In this document: one piece after another, positions 14,220 to 28,062 of the stretch
Position numbering within the stretch: the first letter of the stretch is position 1
Layout of the letters: each line of letters begins with the position of its first letter
Origin: Candidatus Zhuqueibacterota bacterium
Lineage (GTDB): Bacteria > BS750m-G25
DNA length: 29,822 nt
Assembly: GCA_016783505.1 (NCBI GenBank)
Contig: JADHWK010000026.1
Location: forward strand, 1-29,822
Reading direction: 5' to 3'
Translations under genes and position numbers: made by a program
Notes under the pieces: generated by a model
What the model was told of the DNA's origin: nothing
Seen by the model: only the letters and a program-made list of their open reading frames with translations
Databases searched by the model: none

Positions 14220-15050
14220 TCATTTTGTTACTATGGAAGTACCCATACTACCTGTTGGTAGGTTTTCAATTGTTGCTGTAGAATCGCCAGTAGAACATTC
14301 CTTTGCATAGGGTTCAATTTTTCTTTCAAATAGATGATTGGCAGTGAGATAAGCCTCAACTAATCTCTTTTCCAAAATTAAATTATAAACTTTTTCAAAC
14401 TCTTTTTCAAAGTAAATAATGATGTCTTCTACAGCATCTTTAACAGGTATAAGATCTTCAGAATTGCAGTCTTTTGGTGTCATACCCCTTTTAGGATTTG
14501 ATGGTAATTTAAATTCTTCTTTATTTGATATTGGAAAACGCCAATAATGAACAGAATGGTGGCGAAGGAGGATTTTTTGATTACAATTATTAAAAATATT
14601 CCAAAAAGAATCATCAACCATATTTTTTCTTTTCTTTAAATCACCCAATGTAAGCCCCTTCTCAGAATCAGATTTTGGCTTTTTTATAAATAGAGATTCA
14701 ACAAAATTTTCCAAGGCACACAAACCCGAATATAAATCACTGTAACAAGCTTCTACTTCTTCCCAAATATAGAAATAGCTGTATTCTTGCAATTCATCTC
14801 CTAAAAGTTTTTCAAGATTATTGAGATGATAATAAGCACCAAGAATATGAGTAGCTGCAGAGTGACTTTCTAAACCTGTTTTATAAAATGAGTCCAAAAT
14901 TTCATCTGCATTCGGTACATCGGAAAAAAATATAACATTATCTCGTGAAAAAGCACAACCCTTTTCCCTTACTGTCCAGTAGGTTTTTAAAAATTTTAAT
15001 TATTCTTCCATCTTTTTGTCAAGAGGATCTAAGGGATATTTATGCTTCAT
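14220..15050 (-). pseudogene. HEPN-like protein gene interrupted by an in-frame TAA
   Basis: A continuous frame runs from the ATG at 15050 (MKHKYPLDPLDKKMEE) to 14220, but codon 17 is TAA (15000-15002). After it the reading resumes without shift: LKFLKTYWTVREKGCAFSRD, NVIFFSDVPNADEILDSFYK. The residues after the stop look coding and join smoothly to the long open part (14220-14897), which suggests a nonsense mutation or base-call error. The protein is helical, and RHHSVH near the middle (R-x4-H) matches the catalytic motif of HEPN ribonucleases; the size and layout recall Cthe_2314-like HEPN proteins, a guess from memory. AAGG precedes the ATG at 15050. AT-rich, beside a defence-rich region. 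Confidence 0.6.
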
Positions 15051-17101: not shown

Positions 17102-17389
17102 TTAACTGTTACTTTTTTTATTTCGTGACTTCTGGATACTATTTGCAATTTTCTGTAATTGCACAAGTATTTTTATCTTTTCCTCAAAAGGCAGTTTTGC
17201 CTGCTCTCTATGGAACTCTTCTTTTTTTTCAAACAAATCCCTTCGTGTTATTGTGCTATTCCCCTTCGTAATAATCTTTACCCCGTTAGAAATTCTATCA
17301 TATTTGGATTTATTTCTCTTCTGCTGTCTCATGCCTTCTTTTTGGCAATTTCTAACGGGGTTTATATCTTCAACCTTCTTATCAGCCAT
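17102..17389 (-). CDS. Small partner protein of the adjacent nucleotidyltransferase
   Basis: A 95-residue protein encoded 12 bp behind the nucleotidyltransferase gene, with GGAG 9 nt before the ATG at 17389. The C-terminal half (FEKKEEFHREQAKLPFEEKI, KILVQLQKIANSIQ) is the conserved part of small proteins usually found beside such nucleotidyltransferases. The N-terminal half (DINPVRNCQKEGMRQ, SKYDRISNGVKI) is encoded by a palindromic repeat: CCCCGTTAGAAATT at 17281-17294 and its reverse complement at 17347-17360. The repeat is in frame and adds about 30 residues without a stop. I infer an inserted repeat that the gene tolerates. Whether the protein is an antitoxin or a toxin is not known. Confidence 0.7.
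   Translation of the reverse strand: MADKKVEDINPVRNCQKEGMRQQKRNKSKYDRISNGVKIITKGNSTITRRDLFEKKEEFHREQAKLPFEEKIKILVQLQKIANSIQKSRNKKSNS
17281..17360. repeat. Palindromic repeat inside a coding sequence
   Basis: Perfect 14-bp arms, CCCCGTTAGAAATT and AATTTCTAACGGGG, 52 bp apart. On the minus strand they encode NPVRN and ISNGV peptides. Elements of this kind are abundant in genomes of several uncultured phyla (from memory). Here one sits in frame in the 95-residue gene. Confidence 0.75.
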
Positions 17390-17401
17390 AATAATTCTCC
17401 T

Positions 17402-17887
17402 TCATAAAGACTTGAGTTTCTCACTCAAGCCATACTTGTTTAAAATATCTTCGAGTTTTATCATATCTATTTTTGTTTGTTCCAAAAGTCTTTCTATTTT
17501 CTCTATATCCTTTTTCCTGCCAGCCCTTAATAATACGGATATCAGATATTCGGGGTTCATTACTTTTGTTTTAACTCCTTCATATTTTATTTCTTTTGCA
17601 TCGGTTACACCCTCTTCTTCCAGTTTATCAACTGGAATAAATTGAACAGGCATTCCCTCTATTATAATATGTTCTCCTTTCCATTGATAACCTTTATCTT
17701 TAAGATAATCGAATATAGGAGAAAGTAAAATTAGATTCTTCTCTTTTCCTTTAATTATAAACACATCTAAATCATAAGTAAGGAAAGGTTCAGTATAGAA
17801 TATTGTGGCAATTCCTCCGCCGATAGCATAATTTTTAATTAACCCCTCTTTCTGGAGTTCGTTTATAATTTCTATCGTCTTCTCCAT
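17402..17887 (-). CDS. Nucleotidyltransferase, AbiEii/Mnt-like
   Basis: A 161-residue minimal nucleotidyltransferase. NYAIGGGIATIFYTEPFLTYDLDVFI contains the G-G pattern followed by D-x-D (YDLDVF), the metal-binding core of the Pol-beta-type fold, and PVQFIPVDKLEEEGV supplies the third-strand segment. The rest is helical (EYLISVLLRAGRKKDIEKIERLLEQ). Stand-alone proteins of this type act in type IV or nucleotidyltransferase toxin systems by adding nucleotides to tRNA or to a partner protein. Its gene precedes the 95-residue gene in one operon; start at 17887. I read the pair as a putative toxin-antitoxin or phage-exclusion module, with the role of each protein open. Confidence 0.75.
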   Translation of the reverse strand: MEKTIEIINELQKEGLIKNYAIGGGIATIFYTEPFLTYDLDVFIIKGKEKNLILLSPIFDYLKDKGYQWKGEHIIIEGMPVQFIPVDKLEEEGVTDAKEIKYEGVKTKVMNPEYLISVLLRAGRKKDIEKIERLLEQTKIDMIKLEDILNKYGLSEKLKSL

Positions 17888-17920
17888 TGCTTATTTGTTG
17901 CTATTTGGGCTACCAATTCT

Positions 17921-18003
17921 GGCTAACGGTTTCGGTGTATGCGATTTTGTGCCGAAGGCACAATTTGGGTGAGCGAAGCGAACCGCATACACCGTGTTAT
18001 ACG
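17921..18003 (+). repeat. attC-like imperfect inverted repeat, left of the Dnd island
   Basis: GGCTAAC (17921-17927) and GTTATAC (17997-18003) form the outer boxes. Inside are perfect 11-bp arms CGGTGTATGCG (17933-17943) and CGCATACACCG (17984-17994), and a central hairpin GTGCC-GAA-GGCAC. The left arm has extra bases (GGTTT against a single T). This is the general plan of integron attC sites (83 nt), though both outer boxes deviate from consensus and no integrase is seen. It is followed by three loose GAGCG-AGCGA direct repeats at 17971, 18008 and 18027. Confidence 0.45.
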
Positions 18004-18182
18004 CTCCGAGCGTAGCGAGGACAAGGGAGCGACAGCGACCGAAGTGTCATAGGCAAAGGGCCATGTCTTTTGTTTTGTGATCGTTTTCGTTGGGATATGA
18101 ACACATTCCTTAATCGCTTCTCACATCTTCCTCAGCCCACCGAAACCGTCTCTTTTCGTTGAGCTTGCGACACGAACCCGTC

Positions 18183-18554
18183 TCATACCTTCATTAATAA
18201 CCAATCTTTATTTTTCCAATGTATTAAAATATACTTCCCTGAGACTTTCTTTCCATGAAGTAAAAATTCAATTCTCTTCTTCTCAAAATTTAAAAGATCA
18301 TATGCTCCTGTATCCCAAATAAATATTTTACCTGCTCCGTATTCTCCCTCTGAAATTTCCCCCTCAAAATGTAGAAAACCCAATGTGTGATCTTCAACTT
18401 GAACTGCTAATCTTTTCACTTTAGGATTTGTTGGGACACCCTTTGGAACTGCCCAGCTTTTAAGAAAGCCCTCCATCTCTAATCTGAGATCCCAATGAAG
18501 ATGAGAAGCGTGGTGTTCCTGCACTACAAAGCTTTTTAGGCTAGAAGACTTCAT
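18183..18554 (-). CDS. Stand-alone LigD-type 3'-phosphoesterase
   Basis: A 123-residue protein matching the PE domain of bacterial NHEJ ligase LigD, which trims 3'-phosphate and ribonucleotide ends of broken DNA. Conserved residues by alignment from memory with Pseudomonas LigD: H14, H20, D22 and R24 in QEHHASHLHWDLRLE, and H56 in VQVEDH. The tyrosine after that histidine is replaced by F60. SWAVPKGVP and EGEYGAGKIFIWDTGAYDLL complete the fold. No ligase or polymerase domain is attached. It begins 16 bp behind dndE with an AAGG ribosome site, so it is the last gene of the Dnd operon. I infer a role in processing breaks made during modification or defence. Confidence 0.88.
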   Translation of the reverse strand: MKSSSLKSFVVQEHHASHLHWDLRLEMEGFLKSWAVPKGVPTNPKVKRLAVQVEDHTLGFLHFEGEISEGEYGAGKIFIWDTGAYDLLNFEKKRIEFLLHGKKVSGKYILIHWKNKDWLLMKV

Positions 18555-18570
18555 GAGAACACCTTTTCTA

Positions 18571-18948
18571 TCATTTATCCGACTTAAACAAAACAGCGAA
18601 GAAATCTATTGGAGAATTAATTCTTTGGTATTCTATATATAAGAGTTGAATGCCCCTTTCAATATGGTTTCTAATAAATATAGAAATATACTCTCTATCA
18701 TCCATTCTTTTTCTTTCATGCTGATTAACTAAAGCTTTAAATATGTCATCATACTCACCTGTAAGGGTATATCTATTGAACTCATACCCAGCACTATCTT
18801 TTGGTCTTAGATTTTTTACAGATTTTTTTTCAGCTAACGAACGCCCTATGGCCAACCTACAGATTATGTTTCTTCTTTGGTCCAATCTATTTGAAAGATG
18901 GTCAAGTTGCTCAGACGCTTTTTTTGAAATCTTTAATCTACTTGACAT
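18571..18948 (-). CDS. dndE: DNA phosphorothioation protein DndE
   Basis: A 125-residue protein with the DndE pattern: SRLKISKKASEQLDHLSNRL, RRNIICRLAIGRSLAEKK at the start and EFNRYTLTGEYDDIFKALVN with IFIRNHIERGIQLL at the end. DndE is a small subunit of the sulfur-transfer complex with DndC and DndD, forms oligomers and binds nicked DNA. Length is usual for the family. The ATG at 18948 has AGGTGA upstream, 8 bp behind the dndD stop. It is downstream of dndC and dndD in the normal gene order. Confidence 0.87.
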   Translation of the reverse strand: MSSRLKISKKASEQLDHLSNRLDQRRNIICRLAIGRSLAEKKSVKNLRPKDSAGYEFNRYTLTGEYDDIFKALVNQHERKRMDDREYISIFIRNHIERGIQLLYIEYQRINSPIDFFAVLFKSDK

Positions 18949-18956
18949 AAGTTCAC

Positions 18957-20966
18957 CTACTCAAAGAAGTAGCCATTATTTATTTTATTTTCCTCACTAA
19001 GAGATAAACTGTAGGCTTTATTAATATGAGGTTTTAATTTTCTATATAATTCTTGGTCAATCTCTCGATCATGAGCTAAAATAATAACCTGGTCTCCTGC
19101 GATTGGAAAAAAGTTTTCAGTAATTTTTTCTACATGACTCTTATCTAATTTTGCCAATGGCGAATCGACTATCAATGGTAGCTTTCTATTCGATATTTCT
19201 GATAGACCCCAAAGAACAGAAAGAGCATATATTTCCTTCTCCCCTGCAGATATATTATCCTTATCTACAACCCCATCATCAAAATCAATCAAAGTAGTAG
19301 TAAATGTTTTATGATCAATTTTTATTTCTTTGACCATATCGTCTTTATTTGCAAGTTTGCGGTACATGTTTGTAATTATTTTTTCTAGTTCTTCAATTTT
19401 TGATGAGATAACTACATTAATGAATTCCTTTATTGAATCTTTAATTTTCATGAATACATCAATCTTCATAGCGTCCTTTTCGATACATACTATTTTCTCT
19501 TCTAATTCTCTTATAATTCCTTCAATTTTCGTTCTTTTTTCTTTTAGCGACTGACTCTCATTCTTTAATGTGTTAATGTCTTTCTCCATGAGTTCTATCT
19601 TTGTGCGTATAGATGTCAGTTCCTCCACGTATTCTTTTACAAAACACTCATCTGGAACTTGTTTTAATTTATCTTTAAGTTTTTTAGCCTGCAGAAGATT
19701 TTTTTCTCTGAGTTTAAGAATCTCATTAAGTTCTATTTTCACATACTCTTCAGTCTTATTCAAAAAATTCTCGATAAAATCCATTTCTGCACTTGTCAAA
19801 TCATGAATAAAAAATTCTTGAGATTCATTAACAATCTCTTCAAACATTTCCGAGAAGATATTATTAATCTCGGTTTTGATGATATTCAATTGATTTTTAG
19901 AGAGATCAGTAAGTTTTTTACTTGATTCCACCTTTTTCATAAACTTTTGATTTACTTCCTCCAGAATATGCTTACCTGCTATTAATTCTTTTAGTCGTCT
20001 CTCTTTCTTTAGCTGGTTTAATAGACTCTTACAAACATCCGATGCAATGACGAAAGGTAAAACCTCGCCGCATATTTGCCTTATTTTATTGTTGAGTTCG
20101 TCGAGTTCTCTTTTTAATCTTAACAGTGTATTTTCGTTCTTTTTTCTATCTCTAGCAAAAGCACCAGCCCTTCTTCTTAAATCCTTTTCAACATCTTTTC
20201 TTAGGTAATACATTTTAGCAACTTTATGAGAATTTGCGTCAATATCGTTTTCAATACAATCGATCTCTCTATTTATTTTTGAGATTTCATTTTCCTTCTC
20301 TATAATTTCCTCTTGAAGTTCAGAATGATTAATATTTCTACGTTTAATCTTATTAATTAGCGAGTCTAAGTCTGTAGCTAATGTTTCGTATAGTTTCAGC
20401 CCTATCAAATCTCTTATTGATTCTTTTAGAATTTCTTCTGCCTTATTTCCACTTGCTAGCTCTTTTACTCTTTCTCCATCAAAAAAGAAATGATCGGAGA
20501 CATATGGCGGTATGAGAGAAATAATATAATCCTCCCAGTAATCTCGGGGAATAATTTCTAGAGGCACACCACCTCGATATATTGTAAAATTTTCCTTATC
20601 TACTCTACCATCTTTAAACTCCCACTCTCTCTTCAAAGTTATTGAATATGTCGGATAAGTATCATCGATGTCTATTTCAATCTGAATGAAAAATCGGTTA
20701 TCGTTATCTTTAACAGAAGATTTGTTTTTTCCTAAAAGAAGATAATTAAAATAATTTTCCCTTGATAATGTGGAACCATTGAATATTCTACCGAACAAAC
20801 ATAGCTTTATAGCCTCTACAATCGTTGTCTTACCAGACCCATTAAATCCGCCGATTAATATAATATTTTTTTGCTTATTATCGCTAGGTAGCGTCGTATC
20901 TATTTTGTGGTCCCCTCTAAAGTTTTTGAAATTACATAAAGTAACATTGCGGATTTTCATTTTCAT
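18957..20966 (-). CDS. dndD: DNA phosphorothioation SMC-like ATPase DndD
   Basis: A 669-residue ATPase with an SMC/Rad50-like plan: N-terminal head with Walker A GGFNGSGKT (39-47), the DndD-type motif HFFFDGERVKELA, two long coiled-coil stretches, then signature ISAGEKE (572-578), Walker B LPLIVDSPLAKLD (from 596) and the H-loop AHD near 631. There is no CxxC zinc hook at mid-coil. DndD supplies ATP-driven DNA handling for sulfur insertion. Its ATG overlaps the dndC stop by four bases, so the two are coupled. AT-rich with lysine- and isoleucine-heavy codon use, unlike the beta-oxidation genes. Confidence 0.93.
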   Translation of the reverse strand: MKMKIRNVTLCNFKNFRGDHKIDTTLPSDNKQKNIILIGGFNGSGKTTIVEAIKLCLFGRIFNGSTLSRENYFNYLLLGKNKSSVKDNDNRFFIQIEIDIDDTYPTYSITLKREWEFKDGRVDKENFTIYRGGVPLEIIPRDYWEDYIISLIPPYVSDHFFFDGERVKELASGNKAEEILKESIRDLIGLKLYETLATDLDSLINKIKRRNINHSELQEEIIEKENEISKINREIDCIENDIDANSHKVAKMYYLRKDVEKDLRRRAGAFARDRKKNENTLLRLKRELDELNNKIRQICGEVLPFVIASDVCKSLLNQLKKERRLKELIAGKHILEEVNQKFMKKVESSKKLTDLSKNQLNIIKTEINNIFSEMFEEIVNESQEFFIHDLTSAEMDFIENFLNKTEEYVKIELNEILKLREKNLLQAKKLKDKLKQVPDECFVKEYVEELTSIRTKIELMEKDINTLKNESQSLKEKRTKIEGIIRELEEKIVCIEKDAMKIDVFMKIKDSIKEFINVVISSKIEELEKIITNMYRKLANKDDMVKEIKIDHKTFTTTLIDFDDGVVDKDNISAGEKEIYALSVLWGLSEISNRKLPLIVDSPLAKLDKSHVEKITENFFPIAGDQVIILAHDREIDQELYRKLKPHINKAYSLSLSEENKINNGYFFE

Positions 20967-22321
20967 ACACCGTTTTCAGCTGCCATTTCGTTTATTACAT
21001 GTTCCTCAATAACCTTTTCTAAACGGTCGTAAATTCCAGTTCTACGAGATAAAGATGAAAGATCCTTCTCAACAATCAAAAGTTGCTCTATCAAGCGTGC
21101 TGGGATCCTATTTTTATCACAAATTTTACTCAGTTGTTCCAGACCTAACATATTATTCCTGGGGGAATAGGCTGTAAAATCATTCATTTTAGGAAAATCT
21201 AAAACATCAGCTATGGAAGATATGTTATCTCCCTCATAAATCCATATGGTCTCAATAGCCTTAATTTCCTCGGGGGATATTAAAGGAATTTCTCTACCCA
21301 TGATTTGTTCTTGAAGTTTAATCAATCTTCTTAAAATTTCATGTCTTGTTTCAAACGTAAACGGGCCAAGAATCTTATGTCCTCGATGTTCTGGTAAGGT
21401 GTATTCTCTCCCCAATCTTTTGGCAACTACTTCCCTCTTTTTGCTATTTTTTCTTGTACCTTCTCGATAATTAGGATCGTTACGAATCTCTTTGAGCCAA
21501 TTTCTGAACTCTAAAAGGGGTCCTAACCATGCTTCCCCGTCTTCAATTAAGCCTTCTAGTGCTCTATCCCGTTCTACAACAGTACATACCCAACATCCGA
21601 ATCTGCTACCACCACAAGCGGGGGTACTTTTGTCAATAACCAACGGACACTCTCTATCAACCTTTCGGTAGAATGTTATCAAGTCCCTATTATTATCCCC
21701 CCAAGGTGATTGTACTTGTAGTAAATATGCCCAAACGTCTCTGTAGTCCCAATCTTCTATGGGAGTATAAATATAAGCACCGGGAATTGATGAGTGTTTT
21801 CTTAGTCCAAAATCTTCAATTTCATACTTCCCCATAGTCTGTGCTCGTGAGCCACTTTCGGTTTTTCTGGCTCCCAATAAAATTATTACCTCACCATTTT
21901 CTTTAACTTGTTCTATTATGTATTTAGTCATTGGGTATATTTTGAGTCGGTCCGTGCACCATCTAAACCATCTATTTGGTGATGGATACCCTCTTCCAAT
22001 TAGATTTACCCAGAAAGTATCATTTAACAGGGGACGCAATATTTTGACTGTAATTGGAAGTTCATCTTTTTTAGCTTGCTTTTCAATTTTTCTACATATG
22101 TTTTTTATTCTTAATTCTATAATTGGTGATTCTACTAACGTATCTGCAGATAGTACATGAACTTCTTTGTTACTTTTTTCTGGGTGTAAATTTTGGAGCA
22201 TATAGTAAACCATTTGAGTAACGCAAGTAGAGTCCTTACCGCCACTAAGACCAATTATCCAAGGTCTTTTATCATTTAGGTATAAATTTTCCATTTCTTT
22301 ATAAATCTCAGTAGGATTCAT
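20963..22321 (-). CDS. dndC: DNA phosphorothioation sulfurtransferase DndC
   Basis: A 452-residue member of the PAPS-reductase/PP-loop group. The ATP-binding loop is GLSGGKDSTCV (S26-G-G-K-D-S31). C122 in RWCTDRLKI and C236, C243 and C246 in TPACGGSRFGCWVC are the likely ligands of its [4Fe-4S] cluster. GARKTESGSRA and EDWDYRDVWAYLL are typical. DndC takes sulfur from a cysteine desulfurase and places it in the DNA backbone. No dndA desulfurase is in the window, so a housekeeping IscS/NifS must serve, or dndA lies elsewhere. The ATG at 22321 has GAAGG upstream. It follows the unknown gene by 19 bp and overlaps dndD. Confidence 0.95.
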   Translation of the reverse strand: MNPTEIYKEMENLYLNDKRPWIIGLSGGKDSTCVTQMVYYMLQNLHPEKSNKEVHVLSADTLVESPIIELRIKNICRKIEKQAKKDELPITVKILRPLLNDTFWVNLIGRGYPSPNRWFRWCTDRLKIYPMTKYIIEQVKENGEVIILLGARKTESGSRAQTMGKYEIEDFGLRKHSSIPGAYIYTPIEDWDYRDVWAYLLQVQSPWGDNNRDLITFYRKVDRECPLVIDKSTPACGGSRFGCWVCTVVERDRALEGLIEDGEAWLGPLLEFRNWLKEIRNDPNYREGTRKNSKKREVVAKRLGREYTLPEHRGHKILGPFTFETRHEILRRLIKLQEQIMGREIPLISPEEIKAIETIWIYEGDNISSIADVLDFPKMNDFTAYSPRNNMLGLEQLSKICDKNRIPARLIEQLLIVEKDLSSLSRRTGIYDRLEKVIEEHVINEMAAENGV

Positions 22322-22340
22322 TTTTTCAAACCTTCCCTAA

Positions 22341-22856
22341 TTAGTCAAATTCGTCTTGTAATTTTGATATTATCTCAGAGTCCTCCATCTTAAGTCTTTT
22401 ATGTTCATATTCTTCTTCCATTTCGCTTCTCATTTTATCTAAGTATTGTACAATTTCCTCAACATCATCTATTCTTATTCGGAAACCTTTGCCTGTCCAT
22501 CCTTCATAACTTCTAGTCCGAATAAATTCCCTTACATCGATCATTGGTTCAAATTTAGTATATTTATCTTTTATTCCTCTTATGACTATTTTTGAATCTC
22601 TGCCATTATCTATGACACCAATTTCTCCATTATGTTCTAGCTTATTTCTATTATTAGTTAGTATATCTCTTAATTTTTGTAGTTGATTTCTCGATAGAAT
22701 TATTCCTTTTTTAGTATAACCTGTATATCCTATTGATTGCCAATAATATCGTATCTGACCTAATTTATCAACATAATTTCTCACAGTAATCATAAAATGT
22801 AATGACTTATTTTCGTTAAGTCCTATCACTCCTACGATTTTATTTTCATAGCGCAT
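22341..22856 (-). CDS. Unrecognised protein of the Dnd operon
   Basis: I do not recognise this family. From the ATG at 22856 it has 171 residues; a GTG at 22868, directly after the upstream stop codon, would add four. It opens with strands (MRYENKIVGVIGLNENKSLH, FMITVRNYVDKLGQIRYYWQ), then GYTKKGIILSRNQLQKLRDIL, a second strand region (EIGVIDNGRDSKIVIRGIKD, TKFEPMIDVREFI), WTGKGFRIRIDDVEEIVQYL, and a charged acidic helix at the end. No catalytic motif, signal or membrane segment is seen. A repeated strand-helix layout suggests two copies of a small domain (each ending ...L-x-K-L-R or ...I-x-x-Y-L-D-K). It sits immediately upstream of dndC, so it probably serves modification or its control. 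Confidence 0.75.
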   Translation of the reverse strand: MRYENKIVGVIGLNENKSLHFMITVRNYVDKLGQIRYYWQSIGYTGYTKKGIILSRNQLQKLRDILTNNRNKLEHNGEIGVIDNGRDSKIVIRGIKDKYTKFEPMIDVREFIRTRSYEGWTGKGFRIRIDDVEEIVQYLDKMRSEMEEEYEHKRLKMEDSEIISKLQDEFD

Positions 22857-22868
22857 CCTATTCCCCAC

Positions 22869-23321
22869 TCAGATCTCGTGGTCAATTTTTTCCAATATTC
22901 CTTCTTCCTTTTTCTCTTTTACCTGATTAAAAATATAATTTATTAGATTATCTATTGGTTCACCCGGTTGGTCGAGTAACTTCTCTTTCAATATTTGAAT
23001 CCCCCCATTAGCATACTTTTCCAAAATCGTAATTTTCGTATCAAATGATTCTTCTGTGTCTAGCAATACGTTTAAATCATTTGTTTTTGATAAAGCAATT
23101 GCGTTTATTATAGCTACATCTGTAGCATTCCTTTCAAATACTTCCCAATGTATTTCTCCTTCCCCCGTTGCAGTAGATAAAATTTTTTCTTTACCTTTAT
23201 TATAACCAATACTAGCAGCTAACAGTAATATATCTTTACGAGTGGAAAAAATTTGCTCTTCAGATTCCATAAGTAGGTCATATATTTCCGTTTTTTTCTC
23301 GTAATAAATTCTTCTCGGCAT
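22869..23321 (-). CDS. Dnd-associated small protein (type 4-like)
   Basis: A 150-residue, mostly helical protein. The segment STRKDILLLAASIGYNKGKEKIL, then EIHWEVFERNATDVAIINAIALS and the late YANGGIQILKEKLLD resemble the small family called dnd system-associated protein 4, which turns up only beside phosphorothioation genes. That match is from memory and needs a profile search. Its ATG immediately follows the SMC gene's TAA with a GAGGTGG ribosome site inside the SMC gene end, so it is likely made in step with the SMC ATPase and may bind it. No catalytic motif is visible. Confidence 0.65.
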   Translation of the reverse strand: MPRRIYYEKKTEIYDLLMESEEQIFSTRKDILLLAASIGYNKGKEKILSTATGEGEIHWEVFERNATDVAIINAIALSKTNDLNVLLDTEESFDTKITILEKYANGGIQILKEKLLDQPGEPIDNLINYIFNQVKEKKEEGILEKIDHEI

Positions 23322-25334
23322 TTATTCCACCTCTCTTATCATTGTATGTTCATATTCTACATCGGGTATTTTTTGGGGGTCGTAATATTCCAAGTGGTAT
23401 TCCTTATCTGCCTTTTTTTTCATTGTTTTTTCTACTTCACCTTTCCATTGAGTGCTTGTCACAAGTACAATGACTTGTTCGGCCAACTTTGGCATACCCT
23501 CCCCAATTACTTCCCTATAGTCTTTATCTAAATATCCAAATGGAGCATCCATAATTATAGGATATATTCCCCCCTTAAAATAAACGGCATCTTTCTTCTT
23601 TTCAGATTGTTCCCTAGCAATATCTACCAACCCTCCGATAAAGGATAAACTCGCAATTTGCCGTTCTCCTGTTGACATACCCACAGGTATTTCTTGATCT
23701 TTTACCTTTTTGAATATCTTAAGTTCGTAATCATCTGTAATTTTCGCCCAATAGGGTTTGTGTATGAACTCAGAATATAGATCCCCAACCTTTGTTTGAG
23801 TTTTATCTCGGACTCTCTTTGCAAAATCTTGAAATAATCCCTCAATATATTTCTTTACCTTTTTACATACGATGAACCTCTCTTGTGCAATAGCCCCTCT
23901 AGCCTCTTTTGCTTTTGCTTTTTCTATATCTTTTTCAATATTATTAATCTCGGTTACAACTTTCTTGTTATCGCTTTTCTTAATTCCGATATTTATTTTA
24001 GTATCTTCTAGCTCTCCATCTATAACTCTTCTCTTATTTTCCAGTTCTTGGATCTCCTCGGTATCTTTTTCAAATTCGCTACCAATTTCGGAGATTTGTT
24101 CTTCTAAGTTGATTTTATTTTCAGATAATTCTTCTTTTTCCTTTAAAAGCTTTTTTAGTTGCTTTAGAAATTCGTCTCTTTTCTCAGAGAATTCTTTGAT
24201 AGAACCTGAAATTACAGTAACAGCTTCATCTAATCCTTCCGGACCTGCTTTTTCCCTCCATTGGGTAACTGCCCTATATGGATCAGTGCCCTCCTTTAAA
24301 GGTCTAGCGCAAATACATAAATGCACGTTCAATAAGTCATCTACAAATTGCTTTTTTATAGAGGAAGGTATTTCTCCCTTTTGTCTCTTCTCTTTGAGAA
24401 TCTCCATAGTCTTAGTAAAAGGTTCGTTTGCAAAAGCATAGTAAGCCTTTTTACCACAGAGCGTCTTTATTTCGTTATTTTTTTTATTTATCAACTCTTG
24501 AGTTTCATCCCTTTCATGTTCTAATTTTTCTCTTTTTTCTTGCCGCTCTTTTGCGCTTTCTAGTTTTTTAAGTTTTTCATTAACTTCCCATCTTTCCTCT
24601 TTTAGTGCATCTAAATTCTTATCTAAATTATTAAGATCATTTTTGAGGCCTTTAAGTTTTACTTCTTTTTCCTTCTTGTTTTGGATAAATTCTTTAAGTT
24701 CTTCGCTTCCGTATTTTTCCATTTCTTCTTCAAATCTTCTAGCGACACTATCAAGATGTGTAATAGATCTCTCCAAAATTGTTAGACCCATTATATTCCT
24801 TATAGAATCTTGAATTTCTCTTGAGCTTTCCGTTTTAGACATGCGGTCTATGTCTTCCCCGTGAAAGAAAAATAAGTTACTTAGACTTGGTGGCATTATT
24901 TGTTTAATTATATCTTGTGGGTTACCTGGCACCTTTGTCTTTCCAGTAATATCGATATATTCCAAATGGAATTCCTCATCAACTCTCTCCCCGGTAAAAT
25001 CATTTTCTGATCTCTTTCTTACTACATGTCTTCTCCAAATCGCATACCTTTTTTCATCGTGTTCAAATTTTAGTTGTACTTTGATTTCAATATCTTTGCC
25101 TACCTCAGCTTCTGCTATAGCCCGTTCATTTACAATTCTTTCAGGTCCAGGTAAATTGACCTCACCATAGAGTACCCAGAGAAAAGAATTTAGTAATGCC
25201 GTCTTGCCCGCTCCATTTTCTCCATGTATCACCGTTATATTATTCTCCTTAGATTTAGAAAACACAACCTTTTGTTCCTTTTCCCCACCGTAATATTGTC
25301 TAAAATTAGTCAGCGTTAGTGTATCAAATATCAT
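23322..25334 (-). CDS. Second DndD-like SMC ATPase
   Basis: A 670-residue ATPase of the same class as dndD but clearly different in sequence. Walker A is GENGAGKT (38-45), the DndD-type motif appears as LFFFHGEDIDRMS (about 154-166), followed by coiled coil, a mid-coil LCICARPL (C340, C342), more coiled coil, signature MSTGERQIASLSF (from 553) and Walker B YPIIMDAPFGYLD (from 591). The C-x-C is shorter than the C-x-x-C of Rad50 zinc hooks but lies where a hook would be, so it might bind metal in a dimer. The ATG at 25334 has GGAGGT upstream. It is encoded between the 52-residue ORF and the Dnd-associated protein. I infer a restriction or sensing ATPase working with the helicase-nuclease. Confidence 0.85.
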   Translation of the reverse strand: MIFDTLTLTNFRQYYGGEKEQKVVFSKSKENNITVIHGENGAGKTALLNSFLWVLYGEVNLPGPERIVNERAIAEAEVGKDIEIKVQLKFEHDEKRYAIWRRHVVRKRSENDFTGERVDEEFHLEYIDITGKTKVPGNPQDIIKQIMPPSLSNLFFFHGEDIDRMSKTESSREIQDSIRNIMGLTILERSITHLDSVARRFEEEMEKYGSEELKEFIQNKKEKEVKLKGLKNDLNNLDKNLDALKEERWEVNEKLKKLESAKERQEKREKLEHERDETQELINKKNNEIKTLCGKKAYYAFANEPFTKTMEILKEKRQKGEIPSSIKKQFVDDLLNVHLCICARPLKEGTDPYRAVTQWREKAGPEGLDEAVTVISGSIKEFSEKRDEFLKQLKKLLKEKEELSENKINLEEQISEIGSEFEKDTEEIQELENKRRVIDGELEDTKINIGIKKSDNKKVVTEINNIEKDIEKAKAKEARGAIAQERFIVCKKVKKYIEGLFQDFAKRVRDKTQTKVGDLYSEFIHKPYWAKITDDYELKIFKKVKDQEIPVGMSTGERQIASLSFIGGLVDIAREQSEKKKDAVYFKGGIYPIIMDAPFGYLDKDYREVIGEGMPKLAEQVIVLVTSTQWKGEVEKTMKKKADKEYHLEYYDPQKIPDVEYEHTMIREVE

Positions 25335-25350
25335 TTCAAGACCTCCGTCT

Positions 25351-25509
25351 CTACTGTTCTTTGATTATGTTCTTGATTATTTTCTCGATATCATTTATTA
25401 TATCTCTCGGTTTGTCCATATGAAGCTTTCTTTGCTCAGCTTCCAAGACTGCTTTGATTACCAACTTTACTTCATGTTCAATTTCTTTTGAGTTGTCTAT
25501 TTCCTCCAT
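25351..25509 (-). CDS. 52-residue charged helical protein of the Dnd operon
   Basis: A short gene not obvious at normal length cut-offs. ATG at 25509, TAG at 25353-25351, and an excellent GGAGGT ribosome site 8 nt before the start. It reads MEEIDNSKEIEHEVKLVIKA, VLEAEQRKLHMDKPRDIIND, IEKIIKNIIKEQ: helical and highly charged, with amphipathic spacing of I/L/V. It fills the 193-bp gap between the helicase-nuclease and the SMC ATPase with 16-18 bp on either side, and the frame is uninterrupted. No family is recognised. It is a candidate subunit or adaptor for the SMC protein or the helicase. Confidence 0.8.
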   Translation of the reverse strand: MEEIDNSKEIEHEVKLVIKAVLEAEQRKLHMDKPRDIINDIEKIIKNIIKEQ

Positions 25510-25527
25510 AACTCTACCTCCATTTTC

Positions 25528-27645
25528 TTATAGATGAAGAAGTGAATATTGTTTTTTCAGATTTAATAATTTCCTTTTAGCTTGTGGTCCATTTTCAGCG
25601 ATATCAGCAAACCATGAGACACGTTTTAGTTCTCTCATAATCATTCTTCGCTCAATGTTAAAACGTTTTGGATCAAGACGGTCCAATTCACCAATTGTTG
25701 GTGGAATAACTATGAAATCATAAATATACGAAAATTTCTTGTCTTTATGTTTTCGCAAAATTCTACCTCTCCTTTGGATAAACTGTCTCGGGTTTGTGCT
25801 GCTTGCTAATATATATGCAGTTTCAGTTGCAGGGACATCGACGCCTTCATCAAGGCAACGAATTGCAACTAGTACCTGTAATTCCCATTTTTCGAATCTT
25901 TTCAATAATTTTTCTCGTTCTTCTCGTTTTTCTTCCGCGGTAAATGGGTGTACCTTCATTCCCAAATCTCTTCCTAACATAGCTATAACTCTCTCAATTT
26001 GCCTGATACCTTCTATTTTTCCATCACCACAATATATCAGATTAAATTTGGAGTCTAACCTATCTTCCAAAAGCTCTCTCAATTTTTTTATTTTATTTTC
26101 TGCTCGCCCAATCAGCCTAGCTCTTCTAATTAATAGATTATTTAATGCTGAGTCCTCAGATAACTCAAAATCTTTATCTTTTGGAAATATACGTGCAATT
26201 TTTTTCGATAGTTGATGGTACTCTTCGCATTCATCATCTGTCAGTTCGACTAAATGTGGATAATAATAGTATTTCGTCAGCCAGCCATCGTTAATAGCAT
26301 CTTCAAGTTCATATTTATAAATTATTCCATTTTTAAAATATTTATTAATATATTCATTACCGACATTATCATACCATCTTTCAGGTGTAGCTGATAGTCC
26401 TAACCTAAAGGGAATATTATTTGGAAGGCAATCACGTAAATGCTTAGCTCCTAAGTGATGTACTTCATCCACAATCATTATCGTATCTCTATCATATAAT
26501 TTTGATAGAGTTTTTTGCATTACGTCCATTCCAAATGTTTTGTGTGTCGTAATTAATGAAAAACAATCAATTGCCTTTCCATTGAAGCCAGCTATTTTTG
26601 AGTTTAAACGTCCTTCCCATTTCCTACGAGATTCAAAACCTAAAATTGGGTTTAAATTAAAATTCTTAGCAACATTTTCCCATTGAACTACAAGATGTTT
26701 ATATGGGCATGTTATAATAATAGCTAACCTTTTATTACATCTTTTATATAACTTTGAAATTAATGCCAAAGCGGTAATGGTTTTACCCGCCCCTGTTGCC
26801 ATTTTAAAAATACCTTTTCCCTCATTTTTAAACCATTGTTCGATCGCTTCTTTCTGATATATTCTAAGTTCAATGGAAGAGGGGATTGTGGGGCCTTTTT
26901 CAGTAGACTTAAGTTTATATTCTAGATTTAGTTCATCAATGTCTCGTGGAGCAATTTTTATCAATTTTTCTTTTAATGCCTCAGGAATTTCAAGAATTTC
27001 TACTCTATCTGTTTCTCCATTCCAGTACTTGTTAAACTTGTAATAATCACTTTTAAAATGTTCATATTCTGCCTCAATACAGCTTCGAAATACTTTGATC
27101 TCTTCAATATTTTCGGTCCAAGCCCGTCTAGTTTCATTTACAGAGCCGCTGAAAGATATCCTATTACCATCACGGTCAGTAAGAACTCCTACTTTCATAT
27201 GGAATATACCCGTCTCCGAAATTGTTTGCATATCCATTGGGATGCCATTTTTATCTTTTACAATTGCAATACGAATCTCTAGCTTTTGTTTTGCAATCAG
27301 CCATCCGAGAGCCATAACGTGGTTCCTCACAAACTCATCCTCTATTGAATCAATATCATTTATAGTCGCTCGTTTAATCACTTCTTCCGGCTTTTCGAGA
27401 CCGACTCTTATTGCATCAATGTCCTCTTTTTTCAACATTGCACCAGCAACTATTTTCATCTTACCGTCATTCTTCAACAATCCTCGGATACCTCTAGCTG
27501 CAACTGCTAGAGCTGACGAGGAAAAGAACCCAGCGAGACGACAATATTCAACAGAATTATTGAGGACAGGGATATAAAAATCATTCAGAATGTCGTCATC
27601 ATCTGAATCATATGATGATTTAATTCCTATGTCTCCAAAGCTCAT
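25528..27645 (-). CDS. PLD-nuclease/SF2-helicase fusion, putative Dnd-linked restriction enzyme
   Basis: A 705-residue two-part protein. The N-terminal third has a phospholipase D-like nuclease core: HMKVGVLTDRDGNRISFSGSVN, giving H-x-K ... D and G-S-x-x-N. The rest is a helicase: Walker A MATGAGKT, motif II VDEVHHLG, motif III LSATPERW, motif VI QFIQRRGRILR near the end. This is the plan of the helicase-nuclease annotated as DNA phosphorothioation system restriction enzyme (from memory). It is the first gene of the operon. The ATG at 27645 is tentative: a TTG at 27660 and a GTG at 27654 are in frame, and none has a good ribosome site. I infer it degrades DNA lacking phosphorothioates. Confidence 0.85.
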   Translation of the reverse strand: MSFGDIGIKSSYDSDDDDILNDFYIPVLNNSVEYCRLAGFFSSSALAVAARGIRGLLKNDGKMKIVAGAMLKKEDIDAIRVGLEKPEEVIKRATINDIDSIEDEFVRNHVMALGWLIAKQKLEIRIAIVKDKNGIPMDMQTISETGIFHMKVGVLTDRDGNRISFSGSVNETRRAWTENIEEIKVFRSCIEAEYEHFKSDYYKFNKYWNGETDRVEILEIPEALKEKLIKIAPRDIDELNLEYKLKSTEKGPTIPSSIELRIYQKEAIEQWFKNEGKGIFKMATGAGKTITALALISKLYKRCNKRLAIIITCPYKHLVVQWENVAKNFNLNPILGFESRRKWEGRLNSKIAGFNGKAIDCFSLITTHKTFGMDVMQKTLSKLYDRDTIMIVDEVHHLGAKHLRDCLPNNIPFRLGLSATPERWYDNVGNEYINKYFKNGIIYKYELEDAINDGWLTKYYYYPHLVELTDDECEEYHQLSKKIARIFPKDKDFELSEDSALNNLLIRRARLIGRAENKIKKLRELLEDRLDSKFNLIYCGDGKIEGIRQIERVIAMLGRDLGMKVHPFTAEEKREEREKLLKRFEKWELQVLVAIRCLDEGVDVPATETAYILASSTNPRQFIQRRGRILRKHKDKKFSYIYDFIVIPPTIGELDRLDPKRFNIERRMIMRELKRVSWFADIAENGPQAKRKLLNLKKQYSLLHL

Positions 27646-27660
27646 TTTGTTCACATACAA

Positions 27661-28062
27661 TTCTTTGCTTAGTACCCATATTAAGTATGCTTAGATTGTA
27701 TTAACATTAATTGGATACATCAGATTTTCAATGGGTTGCGAGTTTTCTGCGTGCATATGCCTCTTTCCAATCATATCCTCCGTTGTTTTAAGCCTTTTGC
27801 CCACGATTGCGGATAACGTCCGTATTACCGAACCATGAGGTTCGTATTATCGGAACGACCTTGGGAACTGATTAATTAACGGTATATGCAAACTGGTTCG
27901 CCAATATTCACTCTGTCGGAGCCCGTTATTTTTCACTGCTAAATATCTTCTTTTGTACGTCCCTCTTTTCACATTGATTTTATCCAGCGCAGTTTGTGAA
28001 AGAACCCAATAGATATAACTTGAAGGATTTAATCTAACGTTGCTTTTCCACAAATTCTGTGG
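27661..28062. other. 402-bp spacer between hslU and the Dnd operon
   Basis: No convincing gene; an open frame at 27847-28053 is not protein-like. The spacer is expected to hold the Dnd operon promoter, but no canonical -35/-10 pair is clear. It contains the attC-like inverted repeat at 27811-27930, and a short CCACA-AATTC-TGTGG hairpin (28048-28062) directly behind hslU. Confidence 0.5.
27811..27930 (-). repeat. attC-like imperfect inverted repeat, right of the Dnd island
   Basis: On the plus strand ATAACG-TCCG (27813-27822) pairs with CGGA-gcc-CGTTAT (27917-27929), with a 3-nt bulge on one side. Within it, TCCG...CGAACC and GGTTCG...CGGA (about 27819-27855) form a second imperfect hairpin. 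On the minus strand GCGAACC, then GCATATACCG and TTAA recall GCGAACCGCATACACCG and TTAT of the 17921 site. Total 120 nt. No integrase gene is present, so the attC reading is tentative. Confidence 0.35.

Follow-up and report, generated by a model that had tools for sequence, protein, structure and literature searches.

A predicted bacterial DndCDE-PbeABCD phosphorothioation defence operon with two additional genes in Candidatus Zhuqueibacterota

The stretch of DNA described here (the window) is the entire 29,822-bp contig C23 of a metagenome-assembled genome (MAG) of a Candidatus Zhuqueibacterota bacterium, which is about 60% complete and was the sole genome of its phylum in the genome set searched. 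Nine collinear open reading frames (ORFs), running on the minus strand from 27660 to 18183, encode the four proteins of a PbeABCD effector module, a 175-aa protein (X175), the phosphorothioation (PT) proteins DndC, DndD and DndE, and a LigD-type phosphoesterase (Table 1). An earlier prediction made from the letters of the window alone (the original prediction) had placed nine genes on one strand with overlaps or gaps of at most 20 bp, and all of these ORFs were recovered where it had put them, with distances from pbeA to the phosphoesterase gene of 18, 16, 0, 0, 19, -4, 8 and 16 bp. On the downstream side 295 bp separate the operon from the next gene, and on the upstream side hslU ends about 400 bp away; the nine genes look like one transcription unit.

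Table 1. Genes of the operon, in order of their reading, and the island that contains them.
Feature	Position	Strand	Basis
pbeA, HKD (PLD-family) nuclease-SF2 helicase fusion, 710 aa, TTG start as called	25528..27660	-	PADLOC PbeA
pbeB, 52-aa small protein	25351..25509	-	position between pbeA and pbeC, size, weak similarity
pbeC, CxC-clade ABC ATPase	23322..25334	-	PADLOC PbeC PDLC02714 5.5e-208
pbeD (dnd_assoc_4), 150 aa	22869..23321	-	TIGR04062 88.2 bits (cut-off 74.25); directly after pbeC
X175, probable tandem PC4-like nucleic-acid-binding protein, 175 aa	22341..22868	-	between pbeD and dndC; PF02229
dndC, phosphorothioation sulfurtransferase	20963..22321	-	TIGR03183 465.7 bits (cut-off 290.4)
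dndD, modification-complex ABC ATPase	18957..20966	-	TIGR03185 426.5 bits (cut-off 245.85); PADLOC DndD 5.9e-241
dndE	18571..18948	-	TIGR03184 77.1 bits (cut-off 71.85); PF08870 1.2e-24
stand-alone LigD-type 3'-phosphoesterase (PE) domain protein	18183..18554	-	16 bp after dndE; PF13298 1.7e-39
low-GC island, read as acquired	17102..28062	.	between M3-type peptidase gene and hslU; GC, GC content at third codon positions (GC3)

The PT modification module is formed by the adjacent genes dndC, dndD and dndE, each of which scores above the NCBIfam cut-off of its family, as the original prediction had named them. DndC carries an SGGKDS PP-loop together with C225, C236, C243 and C246, and the CxC motif is absent from DndD. 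No dndA, dndB or dndFGH occurs in the 29,822-bp contig; their predicted absence holds within the window and, since this is one contig of an incomplete MAG, cannot be extended to the whole genome. A single search of the MAG for dnd_assoc_3 (TIGR03238) returned no match, but control profiles were equally silent. The modification cluster has been described as dndA/iscS-dndBCDE (PMC4611135). The MAG encodes three NifS/IscS-type cysteine desulfurases, none of them on this contig and none above the DndA equivalog cut-off, and because desulfurases of this type are present, an operon without dndA need not matter.

The genes upstream of X175 belong to a module described in 2019 (Xiong; PMC6459918) as a PT-dependent partner of DndCDEA in haloarchaea, where PbeABCD blocks viral DNA replication, pbeB, pbeC and pbeD being required and pbeA partly; cleavage of viral DNA was not seen despite the PLD domain. 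The module was later re-annotated and widely surveyed as the CxC ABC-ATPase-DndE system (Rakesh, 2024; PMC10853773), in which PbeA is an HKD nuclease-SF2 helicase, PbeB a small and mostly disordered protein and PbeD a DndE homologue (DndE-like, clade 2), and for which the authors argue for DNA cleavage. PADLOC, NCBIfam (TIGR04062) and Pfam (PF13298) matches agree with the original prediction on the PLD-helicase, the second DndD-like ATPase, the Dnd-associated protein and the phosphoesterase. Its suggestion that the full combination might be undescribed fails for the effector module, whose four genes match PbeABCD.

PbeA matches the PADLOC model PDLC02707 over its full length (8e-244) and TIGR04095 with 590 bits, slightly below the cut-off of 600. 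Its nuclease motif, H154-x-K156-x5-D162...G172-S173-x-N175, is conserved among 21 aligned PbeA proteins, H154, K156, G172, S173 and N175 being invariant and D162 near-invariant. Rows labelled VIA-align fall nearly all within the helicase part of PbeA and are uninformative on its nuclease domain. The top Foldseek match in the PDB of its AlphaFold2 (AF2) model (mean pLDDT 82.7) is SauUSI (7clg; E 9e-22), with 654 columns, 16% identity and a low TM-score (0.29) which may reflect a different placement of the domains. SauUSI is a type IV modification-dependent endonuclease with a nuclease of the PLD family and, as PbeA, a PLD nuclease-SF2 ATPase fusion; unlike PbeA, it is a single-protein enzyme which has its own target recognition domain and cuts 5-methylcytosine DNA (PMC7913695). 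Since the HxK...D...GSxN motif is kept in the 21 proteins and the model resembles SauUSI, the evidence favours an intact nuclease in PbeA, which does not in itself imply cleavage.

The second ATPase scores far higher with the PbeC model than with the DndD models of PADLOC, and contains a CIC motif at residue 340 which aligns with the CIC of other PbeC proteins and corresponds to the CxC at the coiled-coil apex that marks this clade. As CIC is present in PbeC and lacking in DndD, the two ATPases are DndD and PbeC and not one gene duplicated, in line with the earlier proposal that one serves modification (DndD) and the other sensing or restriction, here the effector (PbeC). The TIGR04062 protein occupies the PbeD place of annotated loci and aligns with the PbeD of other loci, its DndE-like fold being taken from the published survey (PMC10853773). 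The 52-aa ORF matched no curated model in PADLOC, Pfam or NCBIfam; it aligns weakly (38% identity) with the equivalently placed small ORF of Halorhabdus tiamatea, and phmmer ties it to same-place small ORFs in three further loci (L006, L030 and L054, the last described below) and others.

The DndCDEA-PbeABCD locus of Haloterrigena jeotgali A29 (PMC6459918) shows the same set and order of pbeA, pbeB, pbeC and pbeD along with dndC, dndD and dndE, also without dndB and dndFGH, and its PbeB and PbeD measure 66 and 152 aa vs 52 and 150 aa in the window. The window operon differs from it in its bacterial host, in the lack of dndA, in having pbe upstream of dnd in one unit and in the addition of X175 and the phosphoesterase. 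The surveyed CxC ABC-ATPase-DndE systems likewise join a CxC ATPase, a DndE-like partner, an HKD-SF2 helicase and a small protein, coupled to DndD-DndE; the main text of that survey names neither PC4 nor LigD, whereas the window operon has both (PMC10853773).

Related loci were collected by searching bacterial and archaeal genomes with a PbeA alignment (80 loci) and from plasmids (6 loci). PbeC lies at most 2.5 kb downstream of PbeA in at least 72 of the 86, PbeD comes next in at least 49, and at least 29 have DndC within reach, these counts being lower bounds because many contigs are short. The order pbeA-small ORF-pbeC-pbeD recurs in annotated plasmid loci. It follows from this survey that the pbe genes belong together, repeatedly with dndCDE; the co-occurrence on which the original prediction depended was thus found for the four pbe genes and largely not for X175 and the phosphoesterase, neither of which is a general companion of dndCDE. 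The locus closest by sequence, L054 of Syntrophomonadaceae A05DMB-I-34 (PbeA 53% identity, PbeC 477 bits, PbeB detectable), has pbeABCD, a remnant resembling an insertion sequence and then dndD-dndC-desulfurase-dndE and, unlike the window operon, contains neither X175 nor the phosphoesterase. Elsewhere in the survey, one locus (L018, 9980-20315) carries pbeA-pbeC-dndC-dndD-dndE in one run and, behind them, genes for DinD and a cysteine desulfurase; no pbeD could be recognised in it, and its PbeC may share the single DndE. In two unrelated bacteria the neighbours of Pbe genes encode large proteins in which one segment resembles sigma-70 region 4 (L024, 14899-17451; L004, 5882-8935).

The operon lies in a stretch of foreign composition. 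GC content is 0.30-0.38 in the island vs 0.50-0.55 for most flanking kilobases, and GC3 of the island genes is mostly 0.21-0.30, with the 52-aa ORF (0.42) and a 95-aa ORF (0.35) as exceptions; in four host genes that flank the island on this contig, GC3 is 0.63-0.73. From this composition the stretch between 17.1 and 28.0 kb is read as horizontally acquired.

We consider the operon a horizontally acquired DndCDE-PbeABCD PT defence operon in which a host IscS/NifS replaces DndA, with a probability of about 93%. Its core is already known in kind, being a bacterial copy of DndCDE-PbeABCD, and is unusual only in the two extra genes. We infer that this copy is active and that its Pbe proteins divide the work as follows. 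DndC, with sulfur from the host IscS/NifS, would act with DndD and DndE to introduce sulfur at specific positions of the host DNA backbone; PbeC and PbeD, an ATPase and a DndE-like DNA-binding protein, would search DNA for sites of that kind; and the helicase and HKD nuclease of PbeA, with PbeB, would act on unmarked DNA, so that replication of the invader is stopped. X175 and the phosphoesterase would be cotranscribed passengers or accessories, with ssDNA (single-stranded DNA) binding and 3'-end healing as likely activities. Several points weigh against this interpretation: the function of the operon is carried over from other organisms, the cutting of DNA by PbeABCD is disputed, no cleavage of viral DNA having been seen (PMC6459918), the PbeB assignment is based on position and weak similarity, and dndFGH may sit elsewhere in the incomplete genome.

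X175 matches PF02229 (PC4) with 23.1 bits, just short of the gathering cut-off of 25, and its second half weakly repeats the PC4 pattern. Homologues were found at two loci, L089 (E 1e-6) and L143 (1.9e-24 with the two-sequence profile A5), each with two PC4 stretches whose total exceeds the PF02229 cut-off. On account of the near-cut-off match, the two-stretch homologues and the weak repeat, X175 is a probable tandem PC4-like protein, and it likely binds ssDNA; its single-sequence AF2 model (pLDDT 41.8) was not usable. Proteins of the PC4-like kind are known from conflict settings, among them the nickase AcrIIA22 (PMC8545432), to which X175 showed no sequence link. No X175 homologue occurs in any of the 86 PbeA loci, no relative was detected in 20 genomes with Pbe loci, and searches of plasmids, phages, viral contigs, the PDB and PHROGs gave nothing usable; X175 as a recurrent Dnd partner was rejected for the loci sampled. 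Elsewhere its relatives are found outside Dnd loci, either next to the gene of a MORC-like GHKL ATPase or in housekeeping surroundings. At L089 (1405-3328) the tandem-PC4 gene is directly followed by such an ATPase (HATPase_c_3, Morc6_S5), a pair which is a possible unnamed two-gene system.

The phosphoesterase contains a complete PE domain, which passes the cut-offs of both PF13298 and TIGR02777 (149.7 bits; cut-off 144). Its nearest solved structure is 3p4h (E 3e-43), which has about the same length and is highly similar over the whole chain; unlike the solved stand-alone LigD 3'-phosphoesterases (3p4h, 3p43), it is encoded in a dnd operon. The H, H, D and R residues and the His of the EDH motif align with 3p4h, while the Tyr of the EDHxLxY stretch is replaced by Phe in both Dnd-linked copies (that of the window and one at L024); these His, Asp and Arg residues and the Tyr are presumably catalytic in LigD 3'-phosphoesterase. 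Among 386 genomes, dndC was above cut-off in 10 and LigD_N was present in 71, and the two were close together only in the window, LigD_N being near none of the nine other above-cut-off dndC loci; the phosphoesterase as a general Dnd partner is unsupported in this sample. In plasmids no clear co-location of LigD and DndC was seen among the matches listed (60 each). Of 26 genomes that carry a Pbe locus, only 2 had LigD_N. In one planctomycete (L024) the Dnd-Pbe island includes a LigD-PE gene that is separated by 7 bp from dnd_rel_methyl (TIGR04096, 8e-186) and oriented divergently to it, a suggestive, though not conclusive, co-location in favour of a tie between LigD-PE and Dnd. Among the papers searched none joins PC4 or LigD phosphoesterase with Dnd, and both X175 and the phosphoesterase are outside every described Pbe/Dnd set that was found.

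For these two genes we lean towards unrelated cargo which was caught up in a defence island and is read from the same promoter with no role in PT defence. They co-occur with Dnd or Pbe sporadically, and tandem-PC4 relatives have a MORC-like ATPase or housekeeping genes as neighbours; against this, the genes are tightly spaced within the operon and not next to it, X175 lying right where the effector half meets the modification half, which sits poorly with mere cargo. That both are instead working parts of this variant is a tentative alternative, in which X175 would bind ssDNA exposed by the PbeA helicase or at stalled invader forks, and the phosphoesterase would clear 3'-phosphates at nicks in self-DNA left by the effector or by oxidative breaks at PT sites. 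It draws on the spacing within one operon (0 bp for X175, 16 bp for the phosphoesterase), on a low GC3 equal to that of the core genes and on the second LigD-PE gene near dnd_rel_methyl in the planctomycete, set against the few Pbe genomes with LigD_N, the absence of X175 from the PbeA loci, its relatives outside Dnd loci and the lack of LigD_N near the nine other above-cut-off dndC loci of the 386 genomes; operon position by itself is no proof of function. Adjacent but separate systems, with PbeABCD using another mark such as methylation, are very improbable, for although Pbe without dnd is common (DndC within reach in at least 29 of the 86 loci; 42% of PbeAC near dndCD, PMC6459918), the genes form an apparent single transcription unit with gaps below 20 bp, reading of the island ORFs revealed no methylase gene, and pbe activity is PT-dependent in the tested system (PMC6459918).

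Other features of the contig accompany the operon. On its 3' side, a low-GC pair (17102-17887) consisting of a DUF2204 nucleotidyltransferase (161 aa) and the 95-aa partner is possibly toxin-antitoxin-like. Between this pair and the operon, a palindromic intergenic element (17895-18185; arms CGGTGTATGCGATT/AACCGCATACACCG, borders GTATAAC...GTTAGCC) is found again in part on contigs C36 and C33, where the borders are similar and the interiors differ, and is reminiscent of an integron attC or another type of repeat; the MAG has tyrosine-integrase matches, none above the IntI cut-off. On the far side of the peptidase gene, a 225-aa ORF (14220-14897; GC3 0.20; no family match) is possibly another acquired gene. 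Three copies of the 139-nt 3' end of etfB (865-1003, 1867-2005 and 2543-2681; 75-100% identical) are separated by ParE-type small toxin modules (1120-1371 and 2017-2573), which looks like serial insertion at the etfB end with the gene end restored each time.

The window contributes one more bacterial DndCDE-PbeABCD operon, from a lineage with a single genome in the set searched, and its apparent single transcription unit supports Pbe as a working partner of PT modification here. A variant PT-defence operon in which a dedicated tandem-PC4 ssDNA-binding protein and a 3'-phosphoesterase are functional parts is a rather unlikely reading. If it were true, the former would direct the helicase-nuclease effector to invader DNA that is single-stranded or forked, and the latter would repair 3'-phosphate nicks in the host's own sulfur-marked genome, as a self-repair arm of PT defence. 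The phosphoesterase gene of the operon also bears on the dispute about cleavage, since an enzyme that heals DNA ends would be of use to the system if self-DNA is nicked.

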